The notes below the pieces were generated by a model. That model did no database searches and was not told the DNA's origin. It worked only from the letters and a program-made list of their open reading frames with translations. From the NCBI GenBank assembly GCA_036924085.1, contig JAVGWX010000002.1, positions 88,555,704 through 88,619,703 on the forward strand: 64,000 nt of DNA, in the 5' to 3' direction. Both the position numbers and the translations under genes were made by a program. Of this stretch, positions 4,675 to 55,795 are shown piece after piece. This DNA comes from Ariolimax columbianus. Taxonomy: Eukaryota > Mollusca > Gastropoda > Stylommatophora > Arionidae. The stretch's first letter is position 1. Every line of letters starts with the position of its first letter.

Positions 4675-5775
4675 CAAGTCGAACCCCAAAACTAACTCCA
4701 ACCAAAATCCTAACCCCAATTATAATCATAACCCCAAGAGTAATTCTAACCCAATCCTAATCCTAGCCCCAGCCCTAATCATAATCCGAACTCTAACCAC
4801 AAACATAATCATAACCCTAATTCTAACCCCACCCCTAATCACAACCCCACCCTAAGCCTAACCTCAACCCTAATCCCAACCCTAATCCCAACCCTAATCC
4901 AAAATCCAACCCTAATTCTAACATCAACCCTTATCTTAACCACAACCCTAATCCTATCCCAACTCAAAACCTAACCACAACGCTAATCCTAACCATAATC
5001 CTAACCCCAACCTTAATCCTAACCCTAAGCACAACCCTAATCCTAACCCCAACCCTAGTCATAACCGTAACCCCAATCTCAACCCTAATCATAATCCTAA
5101 CCCAAATGATATTTCTCATTCTGATCCAAACCCTAACACAAACCCTTATACAAACGCTAATACTAATCCTAGCCCAAATCCTAACCTTTATCCTACCCTA
5201 ACACAAACCCTAATTCTTATCCAAATAATAACCATAATCCTAATACTAATCCTAACTCTAATGATAGTCCTAATCCTGATCTCAATCCTTATCGTAACCC
5301 TAATCCAAACCCTAACACAACCCTAATCCAAATCCCAACCAAACCCTAATCCAAACCCAAACCCTAAATCTAATCCAAACCGTAACCATTATCCTAATCC
5401 AAACCCTAACCCAAATCCAAACCCTATCCCACATCATGATCCTAATCCCAATCCTAACCATAATCCTAATCCCAACCCTAACCATAATCCTAACCCTAAT
5501 CCAAACCCTGACCATAATACTAGCCCTAATCCTAATCCAAACATTAATCATAATCCAAACCCTAACCATAATCCCAACCCTAATCCTAATCGAAACCCTA
5601 ATCCTATTCCAAACTCTAAACCTAATCCTAACCATAATCCAAACCCTAATCACAATCCAAACTCTAACCCAAACCTTAATCATAATCCAAACCCTAATCC
5701 TAATCTAAACCCTAGCCATAATCCTAACCCTAATTCTAACCCAAACCCTAACCCAAATCATAAACCTAACACATG
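4675..5775. repeat. Long degenerate telomere-like array (AACCCTAATCCTAACC)
   Basis: About 1.1 kb is built of six-base units drifting around CCCTAA, AACCATAATCC and AATCCAAACC. Frames remain open over long parts on both strands because unit length is a multiple of three. The open frames have dipeptide-like composition ([15 protein letters not shown]) and are not genes. This array is more diverged than the 1590-1905 one. Confidence 0.85.
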
Positions 5776-7370: not shown

Positions 7371-7586
7371 GACATCTATTTCTCTAAGTTAACCATATCT
7401 ATTTCTCTCAAATAGCCACATCTATTTCTCTCAAATAACCACATGTATTTCTTTATAATACCAAAATCTATTTCTGTCAAATAAGTATTTCTATTTTTCT
7501 CAAATAATAACATCAATTTCTATCACATAATCACTTCTATTTCTCTCAAGTCAGCAGCTTGACAGTCTCACCTTAGTTTTTCTCTC
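7371..7586. repeat. Left half of a split minisatellite (tttctctcaaataaccacat)
   Basis: Degenerate units of roughly 23-30 bp resemble tttctctcaaataaccacat. The same unit resumes at 13282-13427, immediately after the composite retro-insertion. Its last 20 bases (7567-7586, CTCACCTTAGTTTTTCTCTC) are the left copy of a perfect direct repeat. Removing the insertion and one copy would restore a normal unit (tttttctctcaaataacatc). Confidence 0.8.
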
Positions 7587-7599
7587 TTCTTCTTCTTCT

Positions 7600-8462
7600 T
7601 CTTCGTACGCAGTCAGACAGTAACCATAATTTTTTTCGAAAAAAGCGGCGGTCATCCTGAGGCTGTCGCCACTGCAATAGTGCTTGTCTTGCAGTTCCAC
7701 TGGTGATGGCCACATCTGCTCTCTCTCTGATCCTCGTATGTCGGGCAGTTCTGCAGCAGATGTTCAGCGGTCATTTTACCAGTACCGCACGGGCATTCGT
7801 CGGTACCACCTATCTTCAATTTGTTGAATAGGTGGTACCTCAGTCTATTGTGGCCAGTGCGAAGTCTGAAGACAACGACCTGCTCTCTTCGGCTCAACTG
7901 GTAATAGGCATCGTTTTTGGTGTAACCAGTATGTTCGGTTTCCCATTTGGTCATGATCTGGCTTTGATAAGCCGTTTTGACTCTTCGTACGTCATACTAG
8001 TATCTGTTTGTGGTAGTCTTGCACCTTCTTTTGCCAGTCTGTCTGCCTCCTCGTTGCCTTGGATGTTGCAGTGTGATGGGACGCACTGTACCACTACCCT
8101 TTTTGGTGCGGACTGCTGGCACAGTTTGCAGAGTGCTGCTCTTAAGTCATTAAGCTCAGTGTTTTTCTGGCTTTTTAGCGCTGTGACTACGACGAGAGCA
8201 TCTGTAAGCAGGACTATATGGCTTTCATTTTCATTGTGTGTCATCATTTCTTCCACTGCCGCCCTCAGTGCCTCTGCCTCCGCTCTGAAATTGCTTGTGT
8301 ACTTACCAGTAGCGAATGACAGTGTTATTTTTCTGCCATTTGGTAGGTTCTGGAATGCTCCTGCCCCTCCGTTCTGTGTAGTGTTTGTTACAGAACCGTC
8401 GGTGTATGCATGGGTCCAGTCCATGCTTGGGTAGCTTTTCGATATGAAGCTTAGGGTAGTAT
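7600..8462 (-). pseudogene. LINE ORF2, RNase H domain and zinc-knuckle C-terminus
   Basis: The minus strand reads WTHAYTDGSVTNTTQNGGAG (first catalytic Asp in YTDGS), then AEAEALRAAVEE (Glu), LLTDALVVVTAL (Asp) and VPSHCNIQGNEEADRLAKEG (His and last Asp). All four acidic residues of RNase H are therefore still encoded. After a frameshift near 7955 the C-terminus continues with FRLRTGHNRLRYH and CPCGTGKMTAEHLLQNCP, the Cys/His motif common at the end of I- and Jockey-group LINEs. The piece upstream is lost: the RT thumb ends at about 8475 and RNase H begins almost directly. More than a hundred residues of the usual connection are missing. Confidence 0.9.
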
Positions 8463-9638
8463 CTCTCCTTTCACTCGAGAACTGGTCTCACTCTTCCAGT
8501 GTACAGTTTCTTTAGTAGGCCTTCGTCTGCTCCCCAGCTTGTGCCAGCAAGTTTCCTCATGATTGCCATTCTTTCTCTGGCTCTCATTCGGTTTCTCTCA
8601 ATCTGACTTTTCCATGTCATGCGCTGATCAAATGTGACTCCCAGATAGGTTGGGTTGTCGTTTGGCTGCAGGAATTTGCCATTTAGACTTAATTTTGTAT
8701 TTTGGGGTTTTAGTGAGAGCGAGAATATTGTGCATGTGGTTTTCTCCTCGTTTATTTTGACCAGCCATGAGTTCGCCCACTCTTCCAGCGATGTTAGGGC
8801 CGTCTGCATCCGATTTCTTGCTATGGTGAGATTCTTTTCAGAGGTCCACATAGCCAGATCGTCTGCAAACATTGAGCTATGGACTCTCCTTGGTATATTC
8901 TCTGTAATGTCGTTTATATATACCAGAAAGAGTGTGGGTGACAGTACTCCCCCTTGGGGTACTCCCTGCTCGTGTGTCACCTTTTTGCTCATCTGCCCTT
9001 GTACTTGGACTCTGGCCGTTCTTTGTTTGAGGTAGTGGTTGATCCACTTGTACATTTTCCCACAAACATCACTTCTTCTTAGCTTGACTCTAAGTCCGTC
9101 TTTCCAGACTTTCTCAAATGCCTTTTCCAGATCCACCCAAACAGCTACTGTATGTTTCTGTGCCTGGTAGGCATCTTCTATTTCCTGGGCTATGAGGATG
9201 ACCTGGTCCTCAGTGGATATGTGCTGTCTAAAGCCTGCTTGCTGTGGAATTAGTATGCGTTTTTCTTGCAGATGCCACATCAGTCTGGTGTTTATCATAC
9301 CGGCTGATGGGCCTGTATCCATTTGGATCTGTTTTGTCCTTTCCTGTTTTTGGTACTGGTACCAGTATTGCGTCTTTCCATGCCTGGGGTACAATTCCCC
9401 TTTTCCAGCTTTGGTTCAGGACCGATAGCAGTTTCCTCTTCGCTGTTTGGCCCAGCCCCATCAGCATTTCGTTTGTTATCCCGTCTTTTCCGGGAGATTT
9501 CCTTTTCTTTAATGTTCTCATAGCCTCTTCCATTTCGCTCATTGTTAATTTGGCCATCATGTGCTCTTCAGGTGCCGTATTCATGTTGTCGTGCCCCTTT
9601 AGCTCTTCGCTAATGTCTGTATGCTTATCTGCAGGGAC
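8463..9638 (-). pseudogene. LINE ORF2, reverse transcriptase domain
   Basis: The minus strand encodes a recognisable non-LTR RT. It begins with MRTLKKRKSPGKDGITNEML and PNGYRPIS, then QQAGFRQHISTEDQV, VAVWVDLEKAFEKVWKDGL (palm Asp), GVPQGGVLSPTLFLVYIND and MFADDLAMW (catalytic FADD), ending with YLGVTFDQRMTW and LYTGRVRPVLE. A deletion with frameshift lies near 9300: PNGYRPIS joins MINTRLMWHLQ in another frame and the usual LTSC segment is absent. A stop codon follows RPVLE. The catalytic aspartates survive but the reading frame does not. Confidence 0.92.
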
Positions 9639-10418
9639 CTAGATGTGGTTTGCTCTGGCATAGTGATCGACAAAAGCGTTTGCGGCTTTCTTACCTGTGA
9701 GCAAGTTTTCGCCCTGCTTGATGGTAATTTGTTTATTTGACGGGGTTTCGTCGTTCATGGCTCTGACTAGCTTCCATAGCTTGTTCCCGTCTCTGTCCAG
9801 GTTTAGGCTTTCCGTTTTATTTTTCCTGCTTTCTCTTGCTGTTTGCTTGAGAGTGTGTTTGTATTTCGCCGTGGCGGCTTTGAGGGCGATGTTTGCCTCC
9901 ATGGATTGGTCTCGCTCTGCCATGTTCCTAGCATTTGTCACTGCATCTTCCGCTTTCTGCAACTCATCATTCCAGTAGGGCTTATAGTTTTTCCTAGCTC
10001 CTCTTGGGATGGTTTCAGTGGCGGCTTGCATTATTGCCTTGCTTAGGCTTTCCACCATGGGCTTCATTTTGTTGTTTCGTGTGTTGATGGTTTCACACAG
10101 CCCATCTGTCAGGCTTGCAAATCTGTCCCGGTCGGCTCGTTTGTAATTCCAACGTGGGAGCAGTTTTGTTTCCTGTGGGCCTACTTCCATGTCAATGGTT
10201 AGCCTGATCGGCCTGTGGTCGCTACCTGCCAGTTGGTTTAGCACCTGGCGGTCTATTTTATGGTGTATGTGCTGTATGGAGAAGGCCAAATCTGGAGTCG
10301 AGGTGGTATGCCATGTTCTTGAATAGAAGCTAGGGCTATCCTCCGGCCTATTGATTAGGGAGAGATTTGTGTCTATCTCCCAATCTTCCACTTCGTCACT
10401 TCTGCTGTCTGTGTCAGA
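9639..10418 (-). pseudogene. LINE ORF2, endonuclease end and linker
   Basis: The minus strand continues in the same frame as the endonuclease piece. An in-frame TAA at 10419-10421 and TAG at 9639-9641 are its two breaks. WHTTSTPDLAFS and LAGSDHRPIRLTID are the last conserved boxes of the apurinic-type endonuclease (SDH motif). The following region, rich in Lys, Glu and Asn and ending with WKLVRAMNDETPSN, is the usual linker before the RT domain. Confidence 0.85.
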
Positions 10419-10862
10419 TTATCCCCATCTCTCCGAGTGGCTGTTGAAATCTCCAACTACTATGCAGTTGGAGTCTCTGACCTCCATACTCGAGAGCGAT
10501 AGGTCTCTATTTGGTGGTCCGTACAGATTGAAAATGCGGAGCTTCGTCTCTTGAGCCATTATGTCAACTCCTACAATTTCTGCTTGTCCGGTGTGACTGA
10601 CAGCTACCGCGCTACTCGGTATGCAGTTTCTGGTCAGTATCAGGACCCCTCCTTTGTGGCCTTCTCTATCGAGACGGAAGGTCTGGTATCCTCTGATTGA
10701 GAATTTATGATTATTGTTGAGGTGCGTTTCCTGGATACATGCCACGTCAATCTTACCTTCATGCAGGTGGTGTGTTAGGGAAAGTTTTTTGATAATGATT
10801 CCCTCCGCATTCCACTGTAGTATTTTGAGGGTCTTGAGTTTTTGGTCAATAAAAGTTGCCCC
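10419..10862 (-). pseudogene. LINE ORF2, N-terminal endonuclease domain
   Basis: The minus strand starts just after a TAG at 10863-10865 and reads LKILQWNAEGIIIKKLSLTH. It then gives ACIQETHLNNNHKFSIRGY (catalytic Glu in QETH), GGVLILTRNCIP, FNLYGPPN (Tyr) and VVGDFNSHSERWG (Asp and Asn). These are the exonuclease-endonuclease-phosphatase boxes of LINE endonucleases that nick target DNA. The true start codon is unclear: the first Met in the open frame falls inside the domain (MACIQETH), so an upstream non-AUG or lost start is likely. The domain itself is complete up to the first stop. Confidence 0.9.
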
Positions 10863-10865
10863 CTA

Positions 10866-12240
10866 GCCATGTGCCTTGACTCCATGACACATGGGTGGGT
10901 GACCACCAGTAGTCAAGGGTGGGCCCCTTCGAGGCGTGGGGCCCGGCACTATCGCTGCCTCGCGGGACTCCGCAGGATGAGCACCATGCGTTTTTCTAAT
11001 CGGTTGTACTGTCATCATGCTGCGATTTACGTTGCACTGTTTTGTTAGGCTTGCGGCCCCGTGCATCCGATTTCAACAGGCGTTTCTGTAGGGATGCCCT
11101 CCTTAGCCTATCTGCAAGGCAGTAGTTGTTTATGATCAGAGTTGTCTCTCTTAAGGAAGTTGTCTTACCAGACTATCGAGTCTTCACTACTCGTGTCTAT
11201 AAGGTGCGATGATGATATGTGAGATGATATATGAGATATATGATATGGACTGGTTTACCCGGAAGAGAGGCAGTCCAGTGTGTCTGTACCCCAGGATCGT
11301 CACGTCCTGCCAGAAACGTAGCATTTGCATGTGAGTGGGGTATCTCTTTCTCCCTTTTTTGTCTTGGCTTCTATGCAGAGATGGTACGCCTAGCATTCCC
11401 CGCGACCTGGGATGTTGACACAGTGGGGCAGGTGTGCAATGTCAGCTGGTCTGCATCTCTTCTGCGTCCAGCATGATAGCTGTATGGCTGATAACGTACA
11501 GAGGTAAATATCGAAGCAGAAGTGCATTTAACCAGAGGACAAGCCTGGTAATGTCACAGAGATGTTGTTCGCCTAGTGTGCCGACAGATCTCATGGTCAT
11601 TGGTTGAGTCTCGACAGTTCACAGTGAGGTGGCTGCTCTACTGTTTTCGACACCCCGACCAGGAACTAAGTCTTATGTTGGTGGTTTCGCACCCCATCGC
11701 CGTATAAGGTGAGTATCAAGCAGCTGTCCGCCCGCTTTGATCGGCGGACGGCAGAGACCTCTTTCTGCGGCTCTACCGGATAGGGCTGGGGCGCGAGCCC
11801 CAGGTCCCGAACATGTAGGAGCCTCCCATTGCAGTGGTGCTGATATTTTGGGCGGGATTGCGGCTTACAAGGGTTCGGCCGTAATCCCCCACATGGTAGC
11901 CTCGCGCCATTGGCTTATCAGCCTGGTACGTGAACCAAAGTGTCTGCGGCTCCTCTCGATATGAGCTGGTTTTCCGTAGCAACGCCCTGTCATTAGTAGG
12001 GTAAAACTGACCTGTCTTCATGTGGTCTATTTCCAGCACCCGTTCACTATTTGGCCAGACGAATTTATTGAGGGCTTTTGTTTGTCAATGACCAGGTATT
12101 TGAAATCTGCGGTTTCTGCGTGGTTAAACACGATTTCCGTAGCGTTCTTTCATTAGAGTGTTAGAGAGCTGACTTGTCTTCCGTGAGTCTAATACCAGCG
12201 TACGTTCATTATTAGACCCAACGGTAGTGCTCTCGATTTG
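10866..12240 (-). pseudogene. LINE 5' region, ORF1-like remnant and tandem units
   Basis: No frame is intact. On the minus strand the region holds a Cys-containing stretch around 11290-11460 (TCKCYVSGRT, DIAHLPHC) that could be a decayed gag-type zinc-knuckle segment. There is also an 88-codon frame at 11773-12039 with NSERVLEIDHMKTGQ-like text just upstream. Three diverged tandem units share ccagcacccgttc followed by tattag-c-ca-acg (at about 12033, 12195 and 12376). Position between ORF2 and the 18S piece suggests ORF1 and 5' UTR of the same element. I infer this from order and strand, not from a clear domain. Confidence 0.5.
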
Positions 12241-12261
12241 TCAGTCGTTCTACAGTATTGG

Positions 12262-12288
12262 CGTGTTCAGTCAAATTAAGGCGCAGGT

Positions 12289-12324
<36 letters not shown>

Positions 12325-12325
12325 G
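12262..12325 (-). rRNA. Short 18S rRNA snippet (second copy)
   Basis: On the minus strand this matches 18S from TAAAGGAATTGACGGAAGGG through the caccaggagtgg helix to CTTAATTTGACTGAACACG. It duplicates the last about 65 nt of the larger 18S fragment. It sits at the same relative position in the adjoining tandem unit, so it is part of the unit and not a separate rDNA insertion. Confidence 0.8.
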
Positions 12326-12448
12326 CGAGACAATCAAGTTTTTTAGAGGGTAGCCCCAGATTTTCGAGGGTCTAATTCCAGCACCCGTTCCATATTAGAC
12401 CCAACGAAAGTGCTCTCGGCATGTGAATCATGTCAGTGTTTGGCCCAG

Positions 12449-13271
12449 TTGAGTCAAATTAAGCCGCAGGCTCCACTCCTGGTGGTGCCCTGCCGTCAAT
12501 TCCTTTAAGTTTCAGCTTTGCAACCATACTTCCCCCGGAACCCAAATACTTTGGTTTCCCGGAAGCTGCCTGCAGAGTCATCGAAGCAACTCCTGCGGAT
12601 CACTAGTCGGCATCGTTTATGGTCAGAACTACGACGGTATCTGATCGTCTTCACGCCTCTGACTTTCGTTCTTGATTAATGAAAACATTCTTGACAAATG
12701 CTTTCGCAGTAGCTCGTCTTGCGGCGATCCAAGAATTTCACCTCTAACGCCGCAATACGAATGCCCCCGTTTGTCCCTGTTAATCATTACCTCCAGTTCC
12801 GAAAACCAACAAAATAGAACCGAGGTCCTATTCCATTATTCCATGCACCATTATTCAGGCATCCGAGGCCTGCTTTGAACACTCTCATTTTTTCAAAGTA
12901 AACGCGCCGGCCACCCAGGACGCTCAGCAAAGAGCACCCGTGGGAGAGAGCCGGCAGACGGTAGGGCAGGAGACAACGGGCAGTGAACCGGCGCGAGCCG
13001 GACCGCCCGCCTGCGCCTGAGATCCAACTACGAGCTTTTTAACTGCAACAACTTTAATATACGCTATTGGAGCTGGAATTACCGCGGCTGCTGGCACCAG
13101 ACTTGCCCTCCAATAGATCCTCGTTAAAGGGTTTAAAGTGTACTCATTCCAATTACGGGGCCTCGAAAGAGTCCCGTATTGTTATTTTTCGTCACTACCT
13201 CCCCGTGCCGGGAGTGGGTAAGTTGCGCGCCTGCTGCCTTCCTTGGATGTGGTAGCCGTTTCTCATGCTCC
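12449..13271 (-). rRNA. 18S rRNA internal fragment (pseudogene)
   Basis: The minus strand gives universal 18S landmarks in order: GAGAAACGGCTACCACATCC, GTGCCAGCAGCCGCGGTAAT, GCTCCAATAGCGTATATTAA, GAGGTGAAATTCTTGGA, GATACCGTCGTAGTTC and AAACTTAAAGGAATTGACGG, stopping at CTTAATTTGACTCAAC. That is about 823 nt of a roughly 1.8-kb molecule; both ends are missing. Conserved stems carry scattered substitutions, so it is a nonfunctional copy. The variable region after AGTTGGATCTCAGGCGCAGG looks like molluscan 18S. It ends abruptly at 13271 beside the target duplication. Confidence 0.93.
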
Positions 13272-13422
13272 CTCACCTTAGTTTTTCTCTCAAATAACAT
13301 CTACTTATCTAAAACAGCCACATCTGCTTCTCTCAAATATCTATATCTGCATTTCTCAAAAAATCATATCTACTTCTCTCAAATATCCTTACATTTTTCT
13401 CTCAAATAACCACATCTATTTT

Positions 13423-44775: not shown

Positions 44776-45417
44776 ATCGTCGTAGAAGTAGTAGTAGTAG
44801 CAATTCTAGTAGTTTTAAGAAGCAGTGGTCGTAGTAGTAATATCAATAGTAGTAGCAGCAATAGAAGTAGTAGTAATAATAGTAGTAATAGGAGCAATGT
44901 CAGTAGTACTAGTAGTAGCAGTAGTAGTAGCAGTAATAGTAGTAGTAGTAGCAGTAGTAGTAGTAGCAGTAGTAGCAGCAATAGTAGTAGTAGTAGTAGT
45001 AGCAGCAGCAGTAGTAGTAGTAGTAGCAGCAGTAGTAGGAGTAGTAGCAGTAGTAGCAGCAGCAGTAGTAGTAGCAGCAGCAGTAGTAGTAGTAGCAGCA
45101 ATAGTAGTAGCAGCAGCAGTAGTAGCAGTAGTAGCAGCAGCAGTAGTAGCAGTAGTAGCAGCAGCAGTAGTAGCAGTAGTAGCAGCAGCAGTAGTAGTAG
45201 CAGCAGCAGTAGTAGTGGTGGTGCTGGTGGTGGCGGCGGCGGCAGCAGAAGCAGAAGCAGCAGCAGCAGCAGTAGTAGTAGCAGTAGTAGTAGTGGTAGT
45301 AGCAGTAGTAGTAATGGTAGTAGTAGCAGCAGTAAAAATAGCAGTAGTAGTAGTAGTAGTAGTAGCAGTGGTAGTAGTAGTAGTGGTAGTAGTTTTAGTA
45401 GTAATTTTAGTAGCAGT
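44776..45417. repeat. Long TAG/CAG trinucleotide tract
   Basis: About 640 bp of almost pure (AGT) and (AGC) triplets on the plus strand, blending into GTT- and CTT-type triplets on the left (44600-44775). Poly-Val/Ala (plus) and poly-Leu (minus) open frames of about 200 and 170 codons result from the triplet period. Confidence 0.97.
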
Positions 45418-51729: not shown

Positions 51730-54700
51730 GGTGGTCTGGGTCTTGTGTTGCTCCACAGTCACATGTCTCATCATCGGGCGGTCTTGTGTTGCTTCACTGT
51801 CACATGTCTCATCATCAGGTGGTCTTATGTTGCTCCACAGTCAAATGTCTCATCATCAGGTGGTCTTGTGTTGCTCCACAGACACATGTCTCATCAGCAG
51901 GTGGTCTTGTGTTGCTCCACGGTCACATGTCTCATCATTAGGTGGTCTTGTGTTGCTCCAGTCACATGTCTCATAATCAGGTTATCTAAGTCTTCTGTTG
52001 CTCCACGGTCACATGTCTCATCATCATGTGGATTTATGTTGCTCCACGGTCACATGTCTCATCATCAGGTGGTCTTGTGTTGCTCCACAGTCGCATGTCT
52101 CATCATCAGTTGTCTGGGTCTTGTGTTGCTCCACAGTCACATGTCTCATCATCAGATGGTCTTGTGTTGCTCCACAGTCACATGTCTCATCATCAGGTTA
52201 TCTAAGTCTTCTGTTGCTCCACGGTCACATGTCTCATCATCAGGTGGATTTATGTTGCTCCACGGTCACACGTCTCATCATCACGTGGTCTTGTGTTGCT
52301 CCACGGTCACATGTCTCATCATCAGGTGGATTTATGTTGCTCCACGGTCACACGTCTCATCATCACGTGGTCTTGTGTTGCTCCACGGTCACATGTCTCA
52401 TCATCAGGTGATCTTGTGTTGCTCAACGGTCACATGTCTCATCATAAGGAAGTCTTGTGTTGTTCCACAGTCACATGTCTCATCATCAAGTGGTCTGGGT
52501 CTTGTGTTGCTCCACAGTCACATGTCTCATCATCAGGTTGTCTTGTGTTGCTCCACAGACACATGTCTCATCATCAGGTGGTCTTTTGTTGCTCCACGGT
52601 TACATGTCTCATCATCAGGTGGTCTTGTGTTGCTCCAGTCACATGTCTCATCATCAGGTGGTCTTGTGTTGCTCCACGGTCACATGTCTCATCATCAGGT
52701 GGTCTTATGTTGCTCCACTGTCACATGTCTCATCATCAGGTGGTCCTGTGTTGCTCCACGGTCACATGTCTCATCATCAGGTGGTCCTGTGGTTCTGCAC
52801 GGTTACACGTCTCATCATCAGGTGATCTTATGTTGCTCCACGGTCACACGTCCCATCATCAGGTGGTCTTGTATTGCTCCCAGGTCACACGTCTCATCAT
52901 CAGGTGGTCTGGGTCTTGTGTTGCTCCATGGCCACATGTCTCAACATCAGGTGATCTGGATTTTGTGTTGCTCCACTGTAAGATGTCTCATCATCAGGTG
53001 GTATGGGTCTTGTGTTGCTCCACAGTCACATGTCTCATCATCAGGTGGTCTTATGTTGCTCCACGGTCACATGTCTCATCATCAGGTGGTCTTGTGTTGC
53101 TCCACGGTCACACGTCTCATCATCAGGTGGTCTGGGTCTTGTATTGCTCCACGACCACATGTCTCATCATCAGGTGGTATTGGTCTTGTGTTGCTGCACG
53201 GTCACATGTCTCATCGTCAGGTGGTCTTGTTTTGCTCCACTGTCGCATGTCTCATCATCAGGTGGTCCTGTGTTCCTCCACGGTCACATGTCTCATCTTC
53301 AGGGGGTGTTCTATTGCTCCAGTCACATGTCTCATCATCAAGAGGTCTCGATCTTGTGTGTGCTCCACAGTCACATGTCTCATCATCAGGTGGTCTTGTT
53401 TTGCTCCACGGTCACATGTCTCATCATTAGGTGGTCTTGTTTTGCTCCACGGTCACATGTCTCATCATCAGGTGATCTTGTGTTGCTCAACGGTCACATG
53501 TCTCATCCTCAGGAAGTCTTGGGTCTTTCCACAGTCATATGTCTCATCATCAAGTGGTCTGGGTCTTGTGTTGCTCCACAGTCACATGTCTCATCATCAG
53601 GTTGTCTTGTGTTGCTCCAGAGTCACATGTCTCATCAGCAGGTGGTCTTGTGTTGCTCCACGGTCACATGTCTCATCATCAGGTTGTCTTGTGCTGCTCC
53701 ACAGTCACATGTCTCATCATCAGGTGGTCTTGTGTTGCTCCACGGTCACATGTCTCATCATCAGGTGGTCTTGTGTTGCTCTGCGGTCACATGTGTCAGC
53801 ATCAGGTGGTCTTATGTTGCTCCACGGTCACATGTCTCATCATCAGGTGGTCTTATGTTGCTCCACGGTCACATGTCTCATCATCAGTTGGTCTTGTGTT
53901 GCTCCACGGTCACATGTCTCATCATCAGTTGGTCTTGTGTTGCTCCACAGTCACATGTCTCATCATCAGGTGGTCTTGTTTCTCCACGGTCACATGTCTC
54001 ATCATCAGGTGATCTGGGTCTTGTGGATCTCCACGGTCACACGTCTCCTCATCAGGAGGTCTGGGTCTTGTGTTGCTCCACAGTCACATGTCTCATCATC
54101 AGGTGGTCTGGGTCTTGTGTTGCTCCACGGTCACATGTCTCATCATCAGGTGGTCTTTTGTTGCTACACAAATGTCTCATCATTAGGTGGTCTTATGTTC
54201 CTCCATGATTACATTTCTTATCATCAGGTGGTTTTATGTTGCTCCACGGTCAGTCAGATGTGTCATCATGAGGTGATCTGTGTCTTGTGGATCTCCAGTG
54301 ACATGTCTCATCATCAGGTGTTCTTGTGTTGCTCCACAGTCACATGTCTCATCATCAGGTGGTCTTGTGTTGCTTCACGGTCACATGTCTCATCATCAGG
54401 TGATCTGGGTCTTCTGTTGCTCCACGGTCACACGTCTCATCATCAGGTGGTCTGGGTCTTGTGTTGCTTCCCGGTCACATGTCTCATCATCAGGTGGTAA
54501 TGTGTTGCTCCACGGTCACACGTCTCATCATTAGGTGGTAGTGTGTTGCTTCACGGTCACACGTCTCATCATTAGGTGGTAATGTGTTGCTTCACGGTCA
54601 CACGTCTCATCATTAGGTGGTAATGTGTTGCTCGACGGTCACATGTCTCATCATCAGGTGGTCTTGTGTTGCTCCACGGTCACATGTCTCATCATCAGTT

Positions 54701-55795
54701 GATCTTTTCTTGCTCCACAGTCGCATGTCTCATCATCAGGTTGTCTGGGTCTTGTGCTGCTCCACAGTCATATGTCTTATCATCAGATGGTCTTGTGAGC
54801 TCCACAGTCACATGTCTGATCATTAGGTGGTCTTGTGTTGCTCCAAGGTCACACGTCTCATCATCAGGTGGTCGGTCTTGTGTTGCTCCACAGTCACATA
54901 TCACATCATCAGGTGGTCTGGGTCTTGTGTTGCTCCACAGTCACATGTCTCATCATCAGGTGGTCTGGGTCTTGTGTTGCTCCACAGTCACATGTCTCAT
55001 CATCACGTGGTCTTATGTTGCTCCACGGTTAGATGTCTCATCATTAGGTGATCTGCGTCTTGTGTTGCTCCACGGTCACATGTCTCATCATCACGTGGTC
55101 TTATGTTGCTCCACGGTTACATGTCTCATCATCAGGTGATCTGGGTCATGTGCTGCTCAACAGTCACATTTCTCATCATCAGGTGGTCGGTCTTGTGTTG
55201 CTCCACAGTCACATATCACATCATCAGGTGGTCTGGGTCTTGTGTTGCTCCACAGTCACATGTCTCATCATCAGGTGGTCTGGGTCTTGTGTTGCTCCAC
55301 AGTCACATGTCTCATCATCACGTGGTCTTATGTTGCTCCACGGTTAGATGTCTCATCATTAGGTGATCTGCGTCTTGTGTTGCTCCACGGTCACATGTCT
55401 CATCATCACGTGGTCTTATGTTGCTCCACGGTTACATGTCTCATCATCAGGAGATCTGGGTCATGTGCTGCTCAACAGTCACGTGTCTCATCATCAGGTG
55501 GTCTTATGTTGCTCCACGGTCACATGGCTTATCATCAGGTGGTCTTGTGTTGCTCCACGTTCTCATGACTCATCATCAGGTGGTGTTATGTTGCTCCACG
55601 GTCACATGTCTCATCATCAGGTGATCTTGTGTTGCTCCACGGTCACATGTCTCATCATCAGTTGGTCTTGTGTTGCTCCACGGTCACATGTCTCATCATC
55701 AGTTGGTCTTGTGTTGCTCCACGGTCACATGTCTCATCATCAGGTGATCTTGTGTTGCTCCACAGTCACACGTCTCATCATCCGTGTATCGCCAT
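51730..55795. repeat. 4-kb minisatellite of 41-bp units, about 95 copies
   Basis: The unit is tcttgtgttgctccacggtc plus acatgtctcatcatcaggtgg. Some units carry an extra tctggg (47 bp). A larger duplication covers about 54830-55070 and 55170-55400. Three units equal 123 bp, so frames stay open as a 41-residue pattern, giving plus-strand frames up to 735 codons; these overlap in other frames and have no gene context. A stray diverged unit lies at 56545-56610. Confidence 0.97.

Follow-up and report, generated by a model that had tools for sequence, protein, structure and literature searches.

Dispersed LINE and partner copies in Ariolimax columbianus carry pre-rRNA heads that begin at a probable transcription start and match the host's own 18S

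R7 is a long interspersed nuclear element (LINE) of mosquito 18S genes, where it is a site-specific resident of the ribosomal DNA (rDNA). R8 is likewise a LINE resident at a specific site in the rDNA, in the 18S genes of Hydra (PMC5035012). The RNA of R2 is reported to be a co-transcript of ribosomal RNA (rRNA), and self-cleavage up to 36 nucleotides (nt) upstream of the element leaves an rRNA (28S) leader in many species (PMC3774820). R2 and R2/R1 short internally deleted elements (SIDEs) are described as internally deleted partners that depend on rDNA co-transcription, with template jumps to small stable RNAs (PMC3414825). R1 copies outside 28S genes in Drosophila carry 7–28 bp of upstream 28S and short target duplications (PMC2718515), and an account of human L1-RNA chimeras lists 18 chimeric insertions, with 28S fragments of 50–482 nt (PMC13174262). 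Here we describe a LINE insertion headed by 18S rRNA in a 64,000-nt stretch of the Ariolimax columbianus genome (contig JAVGWX010000002.1, positions 88,555,704 to 88,619,703; hereafter the window), together with the LINE family to which it belongs and a second, partner family.

The insertion in the window is one 5'-truncated member of a large family and not a single chimera. A first-pass annotation of the window had proposed searching the assembly for other copies of its 18S-LINE junction. When the window's 2,541-nt 5' block was compared with the species' own genome assembly (2.29 Gb) and the best 40 of 7,080 candidates were scored, all 40 places, the window included, spanned the join. The other 39 did so at 95–97% identity, and in 30 of them the match started exactly where the 18S of the query starts. 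Because the query contains 18S, the 40 scored places favour headed copies. The next 20 after the window's own were fetched with flanking DNA, and all 20 contain 18S, the rRNA units of the element body (described below) and at least part of the LINE. With the window copy added, the join ..GACTCAACACGG|CCAAACACTG.. falls at the same place, host 18S nt 1237, in 21 of 21 copies, with point differences near it in four (the window copy, L019, L023 and L034). ORF2 is open for 1,299 codons in one of the 21. The fetched copies lie at differing sites within differing target duplications, and no fixed insertion site in an rRNA gene was seen among them.

In 15 of the 20 fetched copies the 18S runs upstream past the point where the window copy is truncated, to or near the edge of the fetched sequence, and in several it continues into the 5' external transcribed spacer (5'ETS). 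Among the 16 LINE copies with further upstream DNA, 11 have a head that extends through the 18S and the whole 5'ETS to (A)TCTGGGG. This head start, (A)TCTGGGGTAG, corresponds to host rDNA position 2570 (BLAST matches start at 2558–2571), 638 nt upstream of the 18S, and the host sequence directly before it is TATATT. Since copied RNAs end there and an AT-rich block precedes it, (A)TCTGGGG is probably the start of RNA polymerase I (Pol I) transcription. An exact duplication stands directly upstream of the head start in seven of the 11 copies. The match starts further in for the remaining five of the 16, and L034 shows a diverged ATCTGGGG ahead of its match.

The heads are close to the rRNA of the host. 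Over 795 columns, the majority 18S of the 21 LINE copies has no fixed difference from the host 18S; single copies differ from the host by 5–19 changes, mostly private, and 12 sites have a shared minority base. The 18S changes total 191, including 112 transitions, 49 of which are at CpG. In every segment, pairwise divergence is 1.8–2.0 times the divergence from the majority, indicating that the LINE copies are star-like. The ETS, by comparison, has 24 columns at which 70% or more of 15 LINE copies (L034 omitted) depart from the C222 array, and no such column occurs in 18S nt 1–1237; three of the 24 ETS bases are also found in the C190 unit. Differences common to most copies in the ETS, with none in the 18S, imply that the 18S stayed under functional constraint until not long before the copies inserted. 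Had a detached head aged neutrally, its 18S would show changes as well; the source of the head was therefore functional rRNA, copied not long before the burst. The 14 LINE copies with comparable ETS have one main ETS haplotype among them.

The partner family was found through a dispersed 18S locus on C18. Its body (~1.6 kb) is 83% identical to the LINE body over 1,405 aligned nt, contains the same three units of older rRNA (A, B and C, below) plus an extra 28S piece, the latter recognized by eye, and shares with the LINE the 3' end ..GCGTACGAAGAAG and the same (GAA)n motif. We found no ORF2 match in the one partner copy tested. Sharing its ends with an autonomous element, with the ORF absent from that copy, the partner can be classed from these features as SIDE-like. 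Set beside an rRNA-derived SINE, which is short and ORF-less with Pol III transcription, the partner has a body of this length and no ORF2 match in that copy, but its head (~1.9 kb) begins at the rDNA start. A search with the partner gave 39 places matching at 99–100% from near the body start, the 40th being the query itself (best 40 of 4,669 candidates). We examined the first 12 of the 39 matches besides L062; the query lacked the nt-1237 head, so these copies were not selected for having one. All 12 carry the nt-1237 join and none is headless. Ten of the heads extend to ATCTGGGG; the other two are truncated within 18S, at nt ~404 and ~944. Four of the 12 (two complete from the late ETS, two truncated) had their 18S sequence read as far as the join, and in these four it is 98.9–99.9% identical to the host. 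For the other eight, reading covered the ETS side and the final ~25 nt ahead of the join; the head of L069 is ~370 nt shorter within the unread part.

No link between partner heads and partner bodies was detected. The partner ETS sequences differ by up to 31 columns in their first ~410 nt, the bodies differ by 0.7% on average, and some of the ETS alleles are also present in sampled host rDNA units. In 10 partner copies, ETS distances show no correlation with those of the bodies (Mantel r 0.03, p 0.35), and four gametes with body class occur at 20 of 33 ETS columns, many of them from one indel. L073 and L075 have all informative body variants in common and 31 ETS columns different, while L072 and L076 share body variants and most of the ETS, and L071, L074 and L075 nearly share both. 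Mixed ETS haplotypes on near-identical bodies are not what a single inherited head would give. Four head classes drawn by eye proved partly mosaic and were dropped; the distance test was used instead.

Read from the 5' end of the element, the insertion in the window consists of the following features.

13272..13291, plus strand: target-site duplication on the 5' side of the element (exact 20-mer repeat)
12444..13274, minus strand: host-like 18S, host nt ~407–1237, 5'-truncated relative to family members (821/830 identical to the host 18S in L038)
12325..12443, minus strand: unit A, the start of the element body, diverged 18S (~14 nt absent after nt 1237) joined to diverged 28S
12092..12324, minus strand: unit B, a second copy of the 18S-28S join, beginning TAAAGGAATTGACGG
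11584..12091, minus strand: unit C, diverged 28S up to the 3' end of the large subunit (LSU) rRNA model (Rfam)
10865..11583, minus strand: LINE 5' region, ~720 nt, without an Rfam rRNA match
7652..10862, minus strand: ORF2 remnant with endonuclease, reverse transcriptase (RT) and RNase H (domain matches)
7587..7604, minus strand: (GAA)n tail
7567..7586, plus strand: target-site duplication on the 3' side of the element (exact 20-mer repeat)

As an observation, the first description of this locus was correct. The perfect 20-bp duplication is exact, with no third site in the window even at ≤3 mismatches and a shuffled-sequence expectation for 20-mer matches of 0.01. On the 5' side of the element, the terminal minus-strand GAG can be assigned to either the duplication or the 18S, which makes the duplication 17–20 bp long. 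The same minisatellite had been noted on both flanks, and it is one 23-bp repeat. Rfam places a small subunit rRNA match on the minus strand where the 18S had been reported, and the piece aligns with the host's own 18S without gaps. Also as described, ORF2 and the (GAA)n tail are on the minus strand; the ORF2 domains were matched piece by piece in the window copy (Exo_endo_phos, 2.6e-10; RVT_1, 6.3e-30; RNase_H, 3.8e-16). This domain content would place the element among apurinic/apyrimidinic endonuclease-type LINEs with RNase H (I/jockey group). Among the best 120 of 2,610 RT relatives, seven have organism names, all of them gastropods (Nucella, Pomacea, Littorina and Elysia). The window ORF2 contains stops and frameshifts and is missing, near 8472, ~430 nt present in other copies. 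The original layout gave the order of 18S, LINE and tail correctly but overlooked ~860 nt of older 18S and 28S rRNA that separate the fresh 18S from the LINE. What had been called an 18S fragment is 18S, but it is a truncated head, starting at 18S nt ~404–407, and so the remnant of one whose complete versions extend to the probable start of Pol I transcription. Truncation at 18S nt ~404, or a few nt off, is common to three copies, two LINE and one partner (the window copy at ~13274, L029 at C5:76785250 and L089 at C3:4433342), which suggests a strong RT stop within the 18S.

The 28S relics of the body were recognized with Rfam and with foreign 28S (L001, L004), and the 28S relic extends to the final position of the Rfam LSU model. 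Compared with foreign 18S, the 18S tails of units A and B gave weak matches, their scores being equalled by 37/500 and 17/500 shuffles; the corresponding counts for the 28S parts were 0/500 and 8/500. With looser scoring, none of the four 18S and 28S parts of units A and B rose above its best shuffle, and unit C scored 498 against a best shuffle of 408. We accepted the 18S tails of units A and B because they recur in colinear order in unit B, in the partner family and among the LINE copies. Candidate compensatory changes in the 28S relic were dropped, as the partner family has the same bases beside canonical loops; the bases once read as compensatory probably reflect host 28S. Searches of public collections gave foreign rRNA matches only (0 and 1 viral contigs, 3 contaminant contigs).

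Elsewhere in the window, degenerate CTAACC-type repeats occupy 1608–1900 and 4741–5770, in the interior of a 164-Mb contig, and a 41-bp minisatellite of ~95 copies spans 51739–55782. A (GTA)n/(GCA)n array at 44782–45403 looks, by eye, similar to GTA-rich repeats in the intergenic spacer of the host rDNA (L040).

The dispersed target sites share a nick after T followed by T or C (TY), which holds for all 16 full-length copies whose duplication is clear (nine partner, seven LINE); by reading, the window and C11 copies also fit. Duplications of 11–13 bp flank nine of nine partner copies tested, a double-headed partner copy and seven of the 11 LINE copies that begin at the start site. For L016, L023, L026, L027 and L028, the automatic duplication test was anchored at a body-internal ATCTGGGG, and an earlier reading of the flanks was used; L023 has a duplication and L016 has no clear one. 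L025 (LINE, 3' flank) and C11:54492957 (partner) both stand ahead of a near-identical target, GAATAGATGGTACC, which resembles antisense LINE ORF2.

Several copies record template jumps. The double-headed copy, C11:54492957, has two tandem heads within one 13-bp duplication, GAATAGATGGTAC: the first runs from the head start to 18S nt ~130, and the second follows from the start onward. Evidently the RT ran to the 5' end of the RNA and continued on another pre-rRNA. We also read 16 dispersed loci (L062 and L090–L104) chosen for 18S beyond nt 1237, a choice that favours unusual joins. In 11 of the 16, pre-rRNA is joined directly to LINE or partner bodies at points other than nt 1237: twice at 18S nt ~1708 (different bodies), twice at 1736 (the same join), once at 1814 and six times in internal transcribed spacer 1 (ITS1; three within ~15 nt). 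Two of the ITS1 joins, L093 and L097, have a 14–15-nt 18S leader before the body, with one mismatch in L093. On the body side, the joins of seven of the 11 odd chimeras lie between −15 and +32 nt around the first base of the body. L100 contains 18S to nt 1796, then 18S 908–1237 and the body, which is the usual join plus an outer jump. L091, L092, L096 and L098 run through ITS1 into 5.8S (by eye) and reach no body in the part read. The head at the rDNA start was read for two of the 16 loci, L062 and, within 8 nt, C6. In L091 and L092 the 18S appears again after 5.8S, as if pre-rRNA templates had been chained. The two different bodies joined at 18S nt ~1708 are those of L101 and L103, and this point is possibly a discrete 18S 3' end in this animal.

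Judged from these sequences, the RNA that is copied, alone or combined with its switch partner, has a single rDNA position as its beginning, and the heads are renewed from host rRNA. To explain how, we favour, at a probability of roughly 45%, residence: active LINE and partner copies would lie inside 18S genes at nt 1237 and provide a pre-rRNA/LINE hybrid as template. Read-through transcription of pre-rRNA from the Pol I start would include these sources, giving a template RNA made up of the 5'ETS and host 18S nt 1–1237, followed by the LINE body with its rRNA relics, ORF2 and the (GAA)n tail. At unrelated sites with a nick after TY, the RT would copy this hybrid in its entirety, sometimes jumping at RNA ends onto more pre-rRNA molecules; units A, B and C would be heads or jumps from earlier rounds. 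Residence is preferred because it is the simplest explanation for a join that stays constant and a head that is universal, and with the nt-1237 join in every partner copy examined, an RNA already containing the join is the simplest account. The first-pass annotation had proposed that an 18S-LINE chimeric RNA integrated in one event and that its source might live in rDNA and be co-transcribed with it. Target priming with an RNA that already combined 18S and LINE stands, but the event was not unique, given the 39 other places and a second family; the tie to rDNA transcription also stands, but a resident copy was not found with the two tests described below.

Several results weigh against residence. 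We saw no rDNA-like target at the dispersed sites. A query consisting of the partner tail, rather than the LINE's own tail, followed by 18S from nt 1238 onward returned plain 18S in 40 of 40 scored matches (of 417 candidates) from an assembly in which rDNA is only partly represented; 16 of the 40 are on small contigs with rDNA units. A pattern placing the tail near 18S had 0 exact matches in the assembly. The sequence CTTAATTTGACTCAAC, after which the first-pass annotation proposed to look for this LINE in rDNA units, is the family-wide join, but neither of these two tests revealed an rDNA unit with the element there. In addition, more than one resident source, or else recombination within the array, would be required to account for the several ETS haplotypes, and the clustering of body-side joins suggests that an RNA ends there and that the template is not one uncut hybrid RNA.

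As a tentative but serious alternative, renewal may take place at the RNA level. The element RNA would be short, made up of the body and an 18S leader of at most 14–15 nt, and the RT would transfer from it to a separate nascent pre-rRNA during target-primed reverse transcription. The transfer would use homology at 18S nt ~1223–1237 in the main families and end-to-end joining or microhomology elsewhere, and the RT would then proceed to the 5' end of the pre-rRNA. The joins at other points in 11 of the 16 chosen loci, the 18S leaders of L093 and L097, the two heads within one duplication, the absence of a link between partner heads and bodies and the two negative tests for a resident copy all favour this alternative. 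However, with the nt-1237 join in 12 of 12 partner copies and none headless, the transfer would have to be nearly obligatory, and the one main ETS haplotype of the 14 comparable LINE copies also speaks against it. We consider it rather doubtful that strand transfer is indeed obligatory, with the RNA ending in a short 18S-derived leader and the RT finishing each cDNA on nascent pre-rRNA up to the Pol I start. If it were, every new copy would receive a fresh host rRNA head, and the relics in the body would be layers of older transfers.

Vertical spread, in which a head was captured once and dispersed copies transcribe themselves from the ETS start through a promoter inside the head, would account for the same join in both families but is improbable. 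Between the two families the bodies have diverged by 17%, yet the LINE 18S has no fixed change from the host, the four partner 18S heads are nearly identical to it and the partner has several ETS haplotypes, some of them carrying alleles of present arrays; nor is the DNA upstream of the start carried along. A one-off template-switch insertion resembling the human L1 chimeras, which is how the window locus looks when taken alone, is refuted by the same join at 39 other places. An assembly chimera, for which only the general difficulty of assembling rDNA speaks, is extremely unlikely in view of the same join at dozens of loci on different contigs and the exact duplications around many elements.

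The families described here resemble R8 and R7 in their association with 18S, and differ from them in that R8 and R7 are site-specific rDNA residents. Like the Drosophila R1 copies outside 28S genes, they combine a location outside rDNA with upstream rRNA and short target duplications; unlike the 7–28 bp of 28S described for R1, the upstream rRNA here measures up to ~1,875 nt and reaches the probable transcription start, in whole families for which no resident was found (PMC2718515). R2 also has rRNA sequence ahead of the element, which arises by co-transcription, but R2 is site specific and released by a ribozyme like that of hepatitis delta virus, whereas the insertion sites here are scattered (PMC3774820). 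Rfam detected no ribozyme in partner copy L065:1300–3300 (E up to 5) or in the window (gathering score), searches that divergent ribozymes could escape. While SIDEs are described in 28S genes, the partner family is scattered and carries ETS-18S heads (PMC3414825). The human L1 chimeras likewise have sense rRNA joined to the LINE 5' end, but here the chimeras are multicopy and reach the transcript start (PMC13174262). In the open-access literature listed, judged by titles and abstract openings, we found no LINE family with a head extending to the rRNA transcript start. In the odd joins and the double head there are natural footprints of possible pre-rRNA 3' ends (18S nt ~1708, a point in ITS1) and of RT jumps within a single insertion; by counting them, one can test how a LINE completes the cDNA 5' end. 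LINE-rRNA chimeras have been known as rare accidents, and LINEs of rDNA as residents of specific sites; in the present case both an autonomous family and its partner carry a 5' part of pre-rRNA that is renewed from the host. A LINE life cycle would then include either transcription by Pol I or strand transfer by the RT onto pre-rRNA, which suggests that a mobile element and the ribosomal RNA genes work in close connection.

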